From Nostoc sp. LPT (GTDB taxonomy: Bacteria > Cyanobacteriota > Cyanobacteriia > Cyanobacteriales > Nostocaceae), in assembly GCF_017115165.1 (NCBI RefSeq), contig NZ_JABXKF010000139.1:123638-187637 (forward strand): a DNA stretch of 64,000 bases. Direction: 5' to 3'. Position numbers and translations under genes: made by a program. Of this stretch, positions 3,322 through 57,917 are shown piece after piece. The notes below the pieces were generated by a model, which was not told the DNA's origin, searched no databases, and saw only the letters and a program-made list of their open reading frames with translations. Positions within the stretch are counted from its first letter, which is position 1. Each line of letters opens with the position of its first letter.

Positions 3322-6300
3322 TCACAGTTTGCTCGGAATTTGGATACAGAACTCAGAGCCATTACCAGGTTCAGAAACATACTTGAGTTGACCGCCGTGT
3401 TTTTCTACAATAATTTGGTAGCTAATAGATAACCCCAAGCCAGTGCCTTGTCCAGGTTGTTTGGTGGTAAAGAAAGGTTCAAAAATGCGCGATTGCACAA
3501 TCTCTGAAATTCCACAACCATTGTCAGCAATCGTAATCAGAACAGTATTCCCTTCTATGATTTCTGTACGTATGCAAATTTTAGGATTATTAATTATTTT
3601 TCCACTAGTTACTGAGTTTTCCAGTGCATCGATTGCATTGTTGAGAATATTCATAAACACCTGATTCATCTGGGCTGCATAGCAGACTACTGGGGGCAAT
3701 TCACCATATTGCTTAACTACCTCAATGGCAAAAGAATTAGTTTGTGGTTGCAGGCGATGTTGTAAAATTAGCAAAGTACTGTCGATACCTTCATGAAGGT
3801 CAACAGGCTTCATTCCTGCTTCGTCAAGTCGAGAAAAACTTCGTAACGACAAGATTAATTGAGAGATCCGCTCTGCCCCCATCTTCATGGAAGTCAGAAT
3901 TTTGGGCAAGTCATCACTAATGAAATCTAAATCCACTGCTGCTATTTGCTTTTGAATTTCTCCTGTTGTTATAGGATACTGTTTCTGATAAAAGCGCAGT
4001 AATTTAAATAAGTTTTCGCTATGTTCAGTAACATAAGTGATGTTGCCATAAATGAAACTGATCGGGTTATTAATTTCATGTGCTACACCAGCAACTAACT
4101 GCCCTAAGCCCGCCATTTTCTCACTTTGAATTAACTGGCTCTGAGTGTGCTGTAATTCTTTAAGAGTCTGGGTCAGCTCTTCTTTTTGATGTTGAGTTTG
4201 TTCGAGTAATTCCGCTTGCTGAAGTCCTACCCCTAACTGAGTACCGATCTGCATCAGCAAATCTACCTCATCTTCTTGCCAATCACGGGGTTTAATATTT
4301 TGATAAGCTGCTAGTAATCCCCAAAGTTTCTCACCTTGAAAAATCGGCACAATCATATATGCCCTAGCCTCCATTCGTTCAATCAAGGCAATACAAGGAA
4401 TAGAATCATCTGTGCTGTAAATATCCTTAATGACCAGAGTTTTACCATTAGCAAAGTTTCCTACTTGATTTTTTTGCAAGTAATCATCTGCATGGGCGTA
4501 GCCCGTCGTAGACATCGCGGGTACAATTTTCTTTACTGATGTCCAACCTTGGGCTAAAGACTCAGCAACAAATTCGCCACTCCAATCAGCTCGGAATCGA
4601 TAGATTGTCACTCGGTCAACTTCTAATAACCGTCGGACTTCTTCTGTACTAGTAGCAAAAATGGTGTCAATATCAAGAGAGTGGCGGATTTTCTCTACGG
4701 TTGCAGCCAGGGCCTTCTCTCTTTCGGCTGCTTTCCGTTCTCGTTCGGCGGCTTGAGCCAGTTTTTGGGCTTGCACCTGCATCTGTGTCAAGGATTCAGC
4801 TTGCTGTAATGCTACTCCCAATTGAACGCCAACTTGTGCTAGCAAGTTGATTTCTTCATCTTGCCAATAACGAGGCTGGGAGTTTTGATAGGCTACTAAC
4901 AATCCCCAGAGTTTTTCGCCTTGAGAAATTGGGACAAAAACTTCATTACGTGCATATTTACCTGCTTGTTTTCCTTGCACAAGTACGCGTTCTGTCACTG
5001 GCTGCGGCTTAACCATTGGTGTCCAGCCATCAACGATGGAATCAGCCACAAATTCCCCACTCCAATCAGGATAGAAGCGATAAATTGCGACTCGTTCCAC
5101 TTCTAATAGCCGACGAACTTCTTGAGTAGTGGTTTTAAATATGGCTTCAATTTCAAGAGACTGACGAATTTTTTCTACTGTGTGCGCCAACGCCCTTTGC
5201 CTTTCAGCAGCTTTACTGATATCTGCTGCTTGGATTTGCATTTGTTGGATAAATTCTGCTTGCTGCAAAGCTACACCTAGTTGGGTGCCCACTTGAGTAA
5301 GCAAGTAAACCTCATCTTTTTGCCAATCACGATATTCAGCATTTTGGTACGCTGCTAGCAAGCCCCAGAGCTTTTGACCGTGGTAAATGGCAACGATCGC
5401 ATAAGCTCTTGCTTGATATATCTCTAAAATTTTAATGTAGCAGTCACTAAAGCCTGAATTGTAAATGTCATTACAAATTCGATACACTTCACACTGAGTG
5501 AAGTTACCACCCTCTGTATCTTGTAAGTAGGTATCAGCGACTGGGGGGTTAGCTAAATCTTTAGTGCTACATTCGCTGACGTTCTCTTTCAATTCTGGCC
5601 GTTGCGACTGTCTCTCTATAAGGGAAACCCAACCCTCTGCGACTGATTCAAACACGAATTCACCACTCCAATCGGAATTGAAGCGATAAATAGCCACGCG
5701 ATCGGCATTTAGTAGCTGCCTAAGTTCTGCGGTGGTTGTGTGAAAAATACTTTCCAAATCGAGGGACTGACGAATTTTCTCAATGGTAATGGCTACGGTT
5801 TTCTGCCATAGGGCTGCTTTTTCTCTGGCTTTTGCTTGTGCTAGTTCTGCTGATTGTAGTTTGACTTGTTCCAGGAAATCTGATTGCTGTAAAGCAACTG
5901 CTAGATGTTCGGCGATTAATTGCACAAACTCAATTTCTGATGCTTCCCATTGTCGAGGATTACCACACTGATGAATACATAACAATCCCCATAAATCTTT
6001 ACCTTTGATCAAGGGGGCAGTTATATTGGCACGTACTTGGAATTTTTCCAGAATCTGGATGTAGCAATCACTAGCATTAACTTGATAAATATCAGCTATT
6101 GCTCTAATCCGACCTTGCTGATACAAGTGTGCGAACTCTTCGCTAAAGCAGTGGTCGCACACTTTGGCTGCTAATGCCGAATTCCATTCTGTTGCTACAT
6201 CTTCGTAGATAAATTCTCCTTCCCATGCCAAATCAGGATAAAAACGAAACACGCTAACCCGATCGCTTTTCAGAAGTTGGCGAACTTCAGTGACTGTAAT

Positions 6301-6462
6301 TTTGAAGATAGTTTCTATGTCTAGAGACTCCCGAATGCGGGCAATAACTCTAGATAAGGCTTTTTGTTGCTCATTCTGACGCAAGGAGAATGTCACGTCT
6401 GAATAAGATTCTTGCGGTTCTGAATTTGGTTGTGTGGGTTGAGTAGTAGAGGAGTTTTCCAT
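3322..6462 (-). CDS. Four-GAF sensor histidine kinase with candidate cyanobacteriochrome domains
   Basis: 1046 aa, soluble. GAF1 (about 35-195) has DHCF with Cys105 and SDCY with Cys133, 28 residues apart, plus RANITAPL and LWGLLCIHQC: the two-cysteine layout of DXCF cyanobacteriochromes. GAF2 (about 215-400) has DTYLQ.TEGG and GFSDCYIKILE with Cys341, like red/green types but Cys-Tyr instead of Cys-His. GAF3 (about 425-555) lacks the segment carrying the chromophore cysteine. GAF4 (about 590-750) keeps the fold with Cys690 shifted by one position. Then a coiled coil, HisKA (HEINNP, His795) and HATPase (NNAIDAL, DNGCGI, GTGLGLSI). Likely a light or bilin-responsive kinase; no response regulator is adjacent. 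Chromophore binding is inference. Confidence 0.88.
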   Translation of the reverse strand: MENSSTTQPTQPNSEPQESYSDVTFSLRQNEQQKALSRVIARIRESLDIETIFKITVTEVRQLLKSDRVSVFRFYPDLAWEGEFIYEDVATEWNSALAAKVCDHCFSEEFAHLYQQGRIRAIADIYQVNASDCYIQILEKFQVRANITAPLIKGKDLWGLLCIHQCGNPRQWEASEIEFVQLIAEHLAVALQQSDFLEQVKLQSAELAQAKAREKAALWQKTVAITIEKIRQSLDLESIFHTTTAELRQLLNADRVAIYRFNSDWSGEFVFESVAEGWVSLIERQSQRPELKENVSECSTKDLANPPVADTYLQDTEGGNFTQCEVYRICNDIYNSGFSDCYIKILEIYQARAYAIVAIYHGQKLWGLLAAYQNAEYRDWQKDEVYLLTQVGTQLGVALQQAEFIQQMQIQAADISKAAERQRALAHTVEKIRQSLEIEAIFKTTTQEVRRLLEVERVAIYRFYPDWSGEFVADSIVDGWTPMVKPQPVTERVLVQGKQAGKYARNEVFVPISQGEKLWGLLVAYQNSQPRYWQDEEINLLAQVGVQLGVALQQAESLTQMQVQAQKLAQAAERERKAAEREKALAATVEKIRHSLDIDTIFATSTEEVRRLLEVDRVTIYRFRADWSGEFVAESLAQGWTSVKKIVPAMSTTGYAHADDYLQKNQVGNFANGKTLVIKDIYSTDDSIPCIALIERMEARAYMIVPIFQGEKLWGLLAAYQNIKPRDWQEDEVDLLMQIGTQLGVGLQQAELLEQTQHQKEELTQTLKELQHTQSQLIQSEKMAGLGQLVAGVAHEINNPISFIYGNITYVTEHSENLFKLLRFYQKQYPITTGEIQKQIAAVDLDFISDDLPKILTSMKMGAERISQLILSLRSFSRLDEAGMKPVDLHEGIDSTLLILQHRLQPQTNSFAIEVVKQYGELPPVVCYAAQMNQVFMNILNNAIDALENSVTSGKIINNPKICIRTEIIEGNTVLITIADNGCGISEIVQSRIFEPFFTTKQPGQGTGLGLSISYQIIVEKHGGQLKYVSEPGNGSEFCIQIPSKL

Positions 6463-52990: not shown

Positions 52991-55900
52991 TCAGTTTTTG
53001 GCGTTACTATCTTTACAGTTCAAAAATTCTTCGATGCGTTTAACAAAGTCTTCTAACTCTACGATTAAGTTACTAGAACCTCGACGCTCTTGGTTTATCG
53101 CTAGTTGTTCTAGTTTTTCTGCTGCCAGATGCATGGTTGTAACTCCCATATTGGCACTAGCACCTTTAATTTGATGCCCTTGGAGCGCTATTTGCTCAAA
53201 GTCATGATCTGCGATCGCTATTTTAATTAACTCTAGACGAGGTTGAATATCCTCAACAAATATTTGCAGTAGTTCCAATTCAAATTCTGGGTTATTTTCC
53301 GAGAGTTGGTGTAAGCGTTCCCAATCAATTGGGAGGTTAACTGCACCGACATCTGTTGTAGAAACTGTTTGCTCTGTGGCAGCTGTTTCTTTTGCCTGGA
53401 ATATCACATTTCCCCAACGCTCTAGTGCTCCCGCCAATTTTTCTTTTATTACTGGCTTGCTCAAATAGTCATCCATTCCGGCATCTAGACACATTTGCTG
53501 GTCTTCTTTCATGGCATTAGCTGTCATTGCAATTACTACAGGACGATAACCACTGGCAAAGTAGCTTTCTTGCCAACGATGAATTTCTTTTGTGGTTTCT
53601 AAACCGTCGAGAACTGGCATTTGGCAATCCATCAGAATTAAATCGTAGGGAATTTTTTCTAATAGTTGCAAAACTTCTTTCCCATTACCAGCAACATCAG
53701 CACTATAACCTAGACTTTGGAGTTGCTTCAAAGCAACTTTCTGATTCACCAAATTATCTTCAGCTAAGAGAATTCTTAATTTATGGGAGTTAGGAGGTGA
53801 GAACCGCGAACTAGGAGAATAATAGTTGCGGTTGTTTTCATAATTTTTCAGTTTTAAGTCCTGAATTCTGACTTCTGACTCTTCTTCGAGCTGCTTTCCT
53901 AAAATAGTCATGATGGTATCGAGGAGTCGGGACGGCTTAATAGGTTTGACTAAATAAGCTGCAAATCCTATTTTTAGCGCTCGTTGGATTTCATCGCGTT
54001 GATTAGTAGAGGTAAGCATAATCAAGGGTAGCCCAGCGATCGCTGAATTTGCCTTAATTTGTTCTCCTAAAGTCATACCATCTACTTCTGGCATCTGCAT
54101 ATCAATTACAGCTATGTCATAGAAATTTTTTTGCTTGGCGGCTTCCTGAATAGCTTTGAGGGCAGTAGTAGCCGAAGCAGCCTGATCCACTAGCATCCCC
54201 CAACGGGTAGCTTGATGGTGGATGATTTTGCGATTAGTAGCATTATCATCTACTACTAACAAGCGCCGATTCAGCAAAAGTTCGCGTTCGCCTTCTAAGG
54301 AAATAGGGTCAAGTTGCTTGGCGAGAGTTACTTCAAACCAAAACTTAGATCCTTTCCCCAAGCGACTTTCTACGCCCATTTCTCCTCCCATCAAGCTTAC
54401 CAGTTGCTTGCAGATGGCTAATCCCAAACCTGTGCCGCCATATTTACGGGTGGTGGAAGCATCTACTTGAGTAAATGGCTTAAAGAGTTTGGATTGATCT
54501 TCAGGGGTAATGCCAAGACCGGTATCTGTAATCGCAAAATAGATAGTGGCTGTAGTCAGGGAAAGCGTACGCAATTCTGCTCGTAATACTACCTCTCCCT
54601 TGCTGGTAAACTTGATCGCATTGCCAATCAGGTTCATGAGAATTTGTCGCAAGCGGCCAGCATCGCCTTGGAGCTGGGTGGGGACGTTGCTGTAGATTAA
54701 TCCTGCAATTTCTAATCCCTTATGATGAGCTGAGGGAGCCAATAATTCCAACACCTCTTCTACACAGGTAGATAAGTCAAAATCTAGAGTTTCTAGTGCC
54801 ATTTCCCCAGCCTCTAGTTTGGACAGATCCAAAATTTCGTTAATCAGGCTTAAGAGAGCATCGCCACTAATGCGAATTGTTTCCATAAAATCCCGCTGCT
54901 CGGAGTTTAGGGGAGTTTCTAACATTAAGCTTGTCATTCCCAACACAGCATTCATGGGAGTCCGAATTTCATGGCTCATGTTGGCCAAAAAGGCACTTTT
55001 GGTTTGAGAAGCTAATTCAGCTTGGTGACGAGCAATTTCGAGTTCTCGTCGCTGTTGAGTTTCTGCATCTAACATTTGGGCTTGGGCTAAAGCAATACCT
55101 ACTTGGTCAGCTATTTGTCGTAAAAGATGAGTTTCAAAGCTAGACCATTGGCGAGAACTGCCGCACTGATGGACAATCAGCAAACCGCAAAGTTCTTCTT
55201 TGACAAGAATGGGTATGACTAAATTACACTGGACTCCAAATTGTTGCAGTAATTCGAGATGATTTTTTTGGACTTCAGCTATATCTAAGTCAGCAAGCCC
55301 CAGATTCGGTTTTTGACGGTACTGTTGTAGATAGTACTGCTGGATGTATTCGGCTTGAAAGTAAGTATCAGTAAGCTTTTTATCTTTAATTGCCAGCCAG
55401 CCAGAAATTACTGCCTCAACCACGGTGGCTCCAGAGCCATCAGCCTTTGGCTGATAAATCAAAACTCGGTCGCTATGGAGAATTTTTTGCACCTCGGTTA
55501 CAGTAATTTGGAGAATTTCTTTGATTTGCAAAGACTGACGAATTTTGAGGGTAATTTCAGTAAATAGTTGCGATCGCAAGTTTTGGCGTTGAAGTTGTTC
55601 TTCTGCCTGCTTGCGCTCAATAAACTGCCCTACTTGCTCACCAATCGAATTCATGACTTTTGCCAAATCTGGGTCAGCTTGCTGGATCTTATGGCTAAAG
55701 CAGGTAATGACACCGATAACTTTTTTACCACTACGGATCGGAAAACCGAAAGCTCCGTGCAGTTCTGCTTCGGCAGCGATTTGAGAGCGGATGAAACTTT
55801 GATCTTTAGCGACATCAGCAATCCAAACAGGTTCAAGACTAGCCCAGACACGACCAGGCAGCCCAATTCCTGGTGCAAACGTAATCTGCCGACTGAGGAT

Positions 55901-57685
55901 GTCAAATTCTTGCATCTCGAAGGAGATTTTATACCATGAATTTAACAAAGACAGTAGATTTGATCGCGGATCTAGCATCCAAAATTCACTTAAATCCCAT
56001 CCCAAACTTTCGCAGATTCCTTGCAGGATTTGGGGCATGGCTTCGTTGATTGTAGTTGACTCTGCCAAGACGCGGGTTGTAACATACTCAGCTTTCAGAT
56101 GTTGTTCAGCTCGTTTGCGTAAGCGCAGCTCCTCGAAGACATCGGTGATATCGATACCTGTAGCAACAATGTATTCAACGTAGCCCTTATGGTCTTGCAA
56201 GGTAGTGTTAGTCCAGGCAATCAGCCGCCGACTGCCATCCTTAGCTACCCAATAGTTTTCGTACTCATTGGGCCCTTCACCAATTCGCAACTGCTCAAAA
56301 ACTGCCTTAACTTGCTCTACCTCTTCAGGAAGTAAAAACAGGTTCCAGAAATGCCTTCCTTTCACCTCATCAAATGAGTAACCAGTTATTTGTTCACAAG
56401 CTTGATTGAAGCGAACGATTTGTCCTTGTGTGTCAATAACTATTACCAAAGCGCTGGCTGTATCAAGGACTGCTGAGATAAAGTTGCGTTCTTGGTTTAG
56501 TGTTTCCTCTGTTAATTTACGCTCTTTTACCTCACGAGAAATTAAATAGTAGACTATAGCCAGAATCAGAAAACTTAGAAAAATAGCAAAAGCCAGTGTC
56601 AAAAGCGTGGTGTTAGCACTGGCTTTTGCAGCTTGTGACTGCTGTTGGAGCAACCTTTTATCCTCACTCTCTATCTCATGTATGACCTTACGGATATCAT
56701 CCATGAGATGTTTTCCCTGATTTGTCTGGATTAACTGCAACGCTGCGTCGAATCCCTGATTTTGACGCAGGTCTATAGTCTTCTTGAGTATGGCAAGTTT
56801 TGCAGCTATCAGAGATTCAAGGGTTGCGAACTGCTTTTGTTGGTTAGATTGATCTGCGATTAAATCCCTCAGTTCGACAATTTTGCGATCAATGTTTTTA
56901 ACTACTGCTTGATAGGGTTCTAGATAACTTTCTTGTCCAGTGAGGATGTAACCGCGTTGTCCAGTCTCAGCATCTTTCATCTCGGACAGTACTTCTTCTA
57001 GTTTATTGATTTTATCTTGGGTTTTTTGTACTTGCTTATTTGTATCAATCAATATACGTGTGTTTTGAGAAGAAATCACGCCAATCAAAATTAAAATTGC
57101 CGATGCTAATCCAAACCCTCCGGCTATTCTTTGAAAAAATTGTTTGCGTGTCTTCTGCGCCTGTTTGCGTGTATCACTTGCCAATACCAAACTTGCTAAA
57201 GTGCGGCGCATTTCTAGTTGTTTAATTACCTGGCGACCGAGAATTCGTAATGCTTCAAGTTGTTCTGGAGAGAGGTTTCTTGGTACATGGTCAATTACAC
57301 AAAGTGTTCCTAGTGCATATCCTTCAGGGTTCGTCAGCGGGACACCAGCATAAAACCGAACATTTGGGTCAGAGGTAACAAACGGGTTTGTCGCAAACCT
57401 TTCATCTTCTGTGGCATCAGGCACAACAAAAACTTCAGGTTGCAGAATAGCATGGGCACAGAATGCCAAATCGCGGGGTGTTTCTAGGGCATCCAAACCA
57501 ACTTTTGACTTGAACCACTGACGATTAGTATCAATTAAGCTGATTAAGGCAATGGGAGTTCCACAAATATATGAGGCTAAACGGGTGAGGTCGTCAAAGG
57601 CAACTTCCGACCGAGTGTCGAGTATTTTATACTCCAAAAGAGATTCGATTCGCTGTGTTTCGTTATCAGGTAATGGTGCTTTCAT
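52991..57685 (-). CDS. Large membrane hybrid histidine kinase (GAF-CHASE3-PAS-GAF-GAF-HisKA-HATPase-REC-REC-Hpt)
   Basis: 1564 aa. N-terminal GAF (about 20-165), TM ([19 protein letters not shown]), CHASE3 ([40 protein letters not shown]), TM ([20 protein letters not shown]), PAS ([20 protein letters not shown]), GAF, GAF (phytochrome-like [13 protein letters not shown] but no Cys at the bilin site: [10 protein letters not shown]), HisKA ([17 protein letters not shown]), HATPase ([17 protein letters not shown]), REC1 ([11 protein letters not shown]), REC2 ([13 protein letters not shown]), Hpt ([11 protein letters not shown]). All phosphorelay residues present. First gene of the minus-strand cluster running to 46753. 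Input signal unknown. Confidence 0.92.
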
Positions 57686-57917
57686 TCTTCAGCCTTATAC
57701 CATTTTGGATTTTAAAAAACAGAATTCAGAATTCAGAATTCAGAATTCTGAATCCAGGAGTTAGGAGTCAAAATTAAGAATACTTTGATAGTCAAAGTTT
57801 ATAATTTGAAGAAAATCAAAAAATCAAAAATGTATAGTGCGCTTGATTCTATATTCATTCTGAATTCTGACCGGAGCAACGGAAACGTCTCCGGCTCCGC
57901 TCCTGAATTCTTTTTTG
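57686..57917. other. Intergenic region with AGAATTC repeats
   Basis: 232 bp containing CAGAATTCAGAATTCAGAATT and later copies of GAATTCTGA; simple short tandem repeats common in cyanobacterial spacers. No ORF. Confidence 0.6.

Follow-up and report, generated by a model that had tools for sequence, protein, structure and literature searches.

Cyanobacteriochromes of the DXCF family have blue dark states and photoproducts that range from teal to orange (PMC6628166; PMC5578081). In TePixJ, the bilin is attached at two cysteines, C494 and C522 (PMC6955287). The trapped-twist photoproducts of teal-DXCF and red/green domains have been tied to phenylalanine residues on strand beta2 and on the bilin-binding helix (PMC5240096), and the beta2 Phe was also linked to teal photoproducts in PMC5578081. 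The insert-Cys domains are defined by a CXXR/K motif (PMC5240096, PMC5578081). The papers found deal with the role of the residue beside the canonical Cys only for engineered fluorescent proteins and domains of the red/green type. The substitution H87Y was critical in turning NpR3784 into the fluorescent biliverdin-binding protein miRFP670nano (PMC6336887), a CH-to-CY change in SPI1085g3 raised both biliverdin binding and fluorescence, and NpF2164g5 is a natural CY protein with a high fluorescence yield (PMC9378818).

The multi-GAF kinase and its predicted sensor domains

The window, the whole stretch of 64,000 nucleotides from Nostoc sp. LPT that was analysed, encodes a multi-GAF histidine kinase with the following features.

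3322..6462, minus strand: ORF of the soluble kinase, 1046 aa, ATG start, with the layout GAF1-GAF2-GAF3 (degenerate)-GAF4 (decaying)-HisKA-HATPase
5866..6321, minus strand: GAF1, aa 48-199, DXCF-type cyanobacteriochrome domain by sequence, tree and predicted fold
6211..6213, minus strand: F84, the beta2 Phe (V in TePixJ), a tuning position in teal-DXCF and red/green domains (PMC5240096)
6157..6159, minus strand: Cys102, an extra Cys one residue ahead of the DXCF Asp (Cys in 1/43 orthologues, Arg in 30/43)
6145..6156, minus strand: DHCF motif, D103-H104-C105-F106, with C105 the predicted second (C10) chromophore Cys
6148-6150, minus strand: codon TGC of Cys105, inside DHCF
6064..6066, minus strand: Cys133, codon TGC, predicted canonical bilin-attachment Cys, aligned with TePixJ C522
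6061..6063, minus strand: Tyr134, codon TAC, replacing the usual His (TePixJ H523)
6040..6042, minus strand: F141, Phe of the bilin-binding helix where TePixJ has L, the second position linked to tuning (PMC5240096)
5242..5760, minus strand: GAF2, aa 235-407, predicted insert-Cys cyanobacteriochrome domain by motifs and tree
5569..5571, minus strand: Cys298 in the insertion loop (CSTK, a CXXR/K motif), predicted second Cys of GAF2, in 43/43 orthologues
5440..5442, minus strand: Cys341, canonical Cys of GAF2, with Tyr as the next residue; Cys in 43/43 orthologues
4783..5154, minus strand: GAF3, about aa 437-560, without the canonical-Cys segment, the best conserved domain
4198..4674, minus strand: GAF4, about aa 597-755, canonical Cys in only 15/43 orthologues; the kinase of the window has Pro689 at this position, and its Cys690 comes one residue later
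3331..4104, minus strand: HisKA/HATPase kinase module with phospho-acceptor His795, N box and G boxes all present

Translation of positions 5850-6462 (minus strand) gave, in succession, KVCDHCF, ASDCYIQ, RANITAPL and LWGLLCIHQC. The initial annotation had placed Cys105 in DHCF and Cys133 in SDCY with 28 residues between them, and had pointed to the retained RAN.TAPL and LWGLLCIHQC segments and to Tyr where His is usual; the translation and the located codons bore out each of these. Its comparison of the spacing with TePixJ was also right, as C494 and C522 are likewise 28 residues apart and align with C105 and C133. The same spacing was present in 103 of the 104 distinct two-Cys DXCF domains collected, which, together with the conservation of both residues in orthologues, argues against a chance arrangement. 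Overlooked in that annotation was Cys102, which is strain-specific and adjoins the DXCF motif; it could complicate thiol chemistry in experiments. Identity of Cys102 with the Cys of the CXDXXL motif (PMC11284453) was ruled out, since that Cys lies two residues before the Asp and Cys102 only one.

To place GAF1 among its relatives, 150 GAF domains were analysed in a maximum likelihood tree by the 'quick' method, with SH-aLRT as the only support measure. GAF1 fell in a clade of 62 rows, mostly DXCF domains (SH-aLRT 99), whose sister was a 50-row red/green-type clade (100), the join between the two having a support of 93. TePixJ and other DXCF domains branched further out, and the phytochrome-type GAFs split off at 99. 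A phytochrome-type or non-cyanobacteriochrome identity was rejected by this tree, and the phylogenetic check proposed with the initial annotation thus placed GAF1 inside the DXCF clade and away from phytochromes. Among PDB sequences, GAF1 was closest to PPHK, NpR6012g4 (6bhn), miRFP670nano and TePixJ (E 1e-40 to 1e-27). An AlphaFold model based on 107 sequences had a pLDDT of 89.8 and a pTM of 0.86, and Foldseek matched it with a probability of 1.00 to bilin-bound cyanobacteriochromes (PPHK, AnPixJ, miRFP670nano and TePixJ). GAF1 accordingly exhibits a cyanobacteriochrome GAF fold in the predicted model, a canonical Cys on the bilin-binding helix, the DXCF Cys 28 residues upstream and the corresponding position in the tree, while the His after the canonical Cys, typical of DXCF domains and not defining, is replaced by Tyr134. 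Sequence, phylogeny and predicted fold all support the original assignment of GAF1 to the DXCF cyanobacteriochromes, and point to a conserved domain that is ordinary in kind.

The GAF2 insertion loop contains C298 in NVSECSTKDL, and the domain has both the CXXR/K loop Cys and the canonical Cys of insert-Cys domains. In the alignment and in the tree (support 90), its partners were the insert-Cys-like GAFs 2 and 3 of L119, a protein of the same genome that has seven GAFs and matches the layout reported for NpF2164, including a CY sequence in the fifth GAF. GAF2 looks like a second dual-Cys sensor, different from GAF1 and of the insert-Cys type. In GAF3, the whole canonical-Cys segment is missing; nonetheless, its mean pairwise identity among orthologues (92%) was the highest of the protein's domains, and its role is therefore probably a non-bilin one. 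The canonical Cys of GAF4 required five changes on the orthologue tree.

The kinase motifs are intact in the sequence of the ORF and His795 was present in 43/43 orthologues. No response regulator was found among the immediate neighbours of the gene, and a comparison of the orthologous loci, whose immediate neighbours differ, revealed no conserved operon partner or response regulator. Bilin supply is plausible, as the genome encodes a full-length heme oxygenase and contains three matches to the Fe-bilin-reductase family. Elsewhere in the window, at 52994-57688 (minus strand), lies a hybrid kinase with CHASE3, PAS, GAF, HisKA, receiver and Hpt domains. Its last GAF is cyanobacteriochrome-like (DTYF), with Asn at the canonical Cys position.

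Conservation and history of GAF1

Using a cut-off of E <= 1e-75, GAF1 orthologues were identified in 49 of 53 Nostoc genomes; they were also present on contigs named as Nostoc, Desmonostoc, Anabaena and Trichormus. The genome of this strain itself contains 63 GAF1-like matches. Residue counts refer to 43 full-length orthologues, the window protein included. C105 was conserved in 42 and C133 in 41 of these, and the bilin-pocket residues D103 (42/43), F106 (43/43), L138, N146 (41/43) and H164 (43/43) were each found in 41-43 sequences. On the orthologue tree, C105 changed once and C133 twice, compared to the five changes of the GAF4 canonical Cys. In L087 (Nostoc sp. NMS8), both GAF1 cysteines are lost (DRYF, SDSY) and the remaining kinase is intact. 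In L100, C133 is lost along with an eight-residue insertion at the motif, a changed N146 and other pocket changes. Both exceptions look like coupled decay. Judged by this conservation, the small number of changes and the loss patterns in L087 and L100, the two cysteines of GAF1 behave as one functional unit.

Of the 43 orthologues, 27 have Tyr at residue 134 and 16 have His, and Tyr followed the canonical Cys in 3 of the 12 two-Cys DXCF domains of this genome. Because the orthologues vary between Tyr and His and a quarter of these domains have the Tyr, Tyr134 does not, on sequence grounds, disqualify GAF1 from the DXCF family. The 12 domains were taken from the examined loci of the genome, with one misaligned entry discounted. 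At one of the loci, L111 (about 4900-4960 of the locus; contig C83 of the genome), a multi-GAF paralogue whose DXCF domain is of the CY type is split into two frames. The split adjoins a short tandem duplication (CCAGACTTTTATAGTT twice) and is either real or an assembly error; in related Nostoc, this paralogue is a single frame of about 1008 aa.

The history of residue 134 was followed on a GAF1 DNA tree from which the codons around this residue had been omitted. Only two Tyr/His changes were needed on this tree, versus seven on the rest-of-protein tree. In the former, ten His-type GAF1s grouped together (support 91); in the latter, they were scattered. Monophyly of these ten was rejected by the rest-of-protein data (p-AU 2.5e-7), as was a well supported rest-of-protein clade by the GAF1 data (p-AU 5.8e-5), both values being optimistic, as the tested groups were picked after the trees had been seen. 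The conflict was large, at 178 and 101 log-likelihood units. The GAF1 segment (5866-6321, minus strand; orthologues L060-L109) thus has a history that differs from that of the rest of the protein, and because the two trees conflict, homologous exchange of this segment among Nostoc lineages appears to be the best reading.

Residues 134 and 137 varied together, in the combinations Tyr134-Ile137 and His134-Met137 (phi 0.90, the top value among variable columns). With only three independent pairs (p 0.25), a coupling of the two positions was rejected in favour of linked inheritance in a recombining GAF1, and the pattern fits two alleles. The two forms of GAF1 might even be interchangeable tuning cassettes, whole domains that recombination swaps between Nostoc species such that photochemistry (colour, dark reversion, fluorescence) is set by habitat; we regard this extension as speculative and quite improbable.

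Predicted photochemistry of GAF1

F84 and F141 of GAF1 together correspond to the beta2 and helix Phe signature of teal-DXCF domains (PMC5240096). Within the set of 12 two-Cys DXCF domains, both residues were Phe in three: GAF1, the L111 paralogue and one domain in L112. Based on this pair of Phe residues, GAF1 is predicted to be blue/teal over blue/green, a prediction drawn from these two residues and not from the tree, which holds no characterised teal-DXCF protein.

We consider it probable that GAF1 belongs to the Phe-containing (teal-like) branch of the DXCF-type cyanobacteriochromes and would work as follows. Phycocyanobilin would attach to Cys133, with probable isomerisation to phycoviolobilin. 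A second thioether, between Cys105 and C10 of the bilin, would give rise to blue/violet absorption in the dark state. Light would flip the C15=C16 bond and break the Cys105-C10 bond, yielding a teal-to-green-absorbing photoproduct in which the D-ring twist would be held by F84 and F141. The state of GAF1, together with that of GAF2 as a predicted near-UV/violet insert-Cys sensor, would then be relayed to the soluble HisKA/HATPase module.

That GAF1 is a working DXCF photoreceptor of the blue/green type, like TePixJ, would agree with the presence of TePixJ among the neighbouring DXCF rows of the tree and with the DXCF and HQC motifs common to both, but the two Phe residues, tied to teal photoproducts (PMC5240096, PMC5578081), stand where TePixJ has V and L, and we regard a blue/green cycle as unlikely. 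Loss of the photoreceptor function, with GAF2 as the light input of the kinase and GAF1 as a structural domain or thiol/redox sensor, is highly improbable. GAF2 does keep both cysteines in all 43 orthologues, and L087 has dispensed with both GAF1 cysteines and kept the other parts of the protein; against this, the bilin pocket of GAF1 (D103, F106, L138, N146, H164) is almost invariant and loss of its cysteines is rare, unlike in GAF4.

A different concern is raised by Tyr134. As CH-to-CY changes in red/green relatives raise fluorescence and biliverdin binding, this residue may alter the photochemistry of GAF1 or weaken its photoconversion. In the open-access literature, no DXCF domain that has been characterised was found to carry Tyr at this position. 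In the stronger form of this argument, the bilin would sit on Cys133, but Tyr134 would cause poor photoconversion, lasting fluorescence, or a chromophore that is either kept as phycocyanobilin or taken up as biliverdin, and the Cys105 bond would not be usefully reversible. The H87Y change that led from NpR3784 to miRFP670nano (PMC6336887), the CY form of SPI1085g3 and the fluorescent natural NpF2164g5 (PMC9378818) favour such an outcome. These precedents, however, are all red/green domains without the second Cys. It would also be unexpected under this reading for C105 to persist in 42/43 orthologues, the majority of which are CY. Residue 134, moreover, switches between Tyr and His among orthologues that retain both cysteines. 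We hence view this outcome as rather unlikely and prefer the reversible dual-Cys photocycle proposed above.

Comparison with characterised cyanobacteriochromes

What the locus contributes is a Nostoc photoreceptor kinase that is well conserved and has two predicted sensors of the dual-Cys kind, one DXCF and one insert-Cys. The pairing of these two types in GAF1 and GAF2 is a slight extra, as are the natural Tyr/His chimeras. The orthologues offer a natural series of CY, CH and double-Cys-loss forms in otherwise similar proteins, with which the residue beside the canonical Cys can be probed in a DXCF domain.

The TePixJ GAF domain (blue/green DXCF; PDB 4fof/3vv4) has both cysteines at a spacing of 28, the DXCF Asp and Phe, the RAN segment, the HQC strand and the GAF fold in common with GAF1, with approximately 35% identity in the fold alignment. 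It differs in having His after the canonical Cys and V and L at the Phe positions. NpR3784 and miRFP670nano are 42-44% identical to GAF1 in the fold alignment, and miRFP670nano has the same Tyr after the canonical Cys (the engineered H87Y), where it is compatible with covalent biliverdin. Unlike GAF1, these two proteins have no DXCF Cys (DRYF), and the parent is of the red/green type.

Teal-DXCF domains such as NpR1597g1 of Nostoc punctiforme match GAF1 in the beta2 Phe, the helix Phe and the DXCF motif. In NpR1597, g1 was described as teal-DXCF and g2 as insert-Cys (PMC5240096), which is the order of GAF1 and GAF2, the proteins being compared by description only. Orthology was not adopted despite this shared order, since NpR1597g4 was reported to be photoactive (PMC6121604) and GAF4 of the window protein has lost its canonical Cys. 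The likeness to the insert-Cys cyanobacteriochromes NpF2164g2/g3 and NpR1597g2, which have a CXXK Cys in the loop in addition to the canonical Cys, belongs to GAF2 and not to GAF1.
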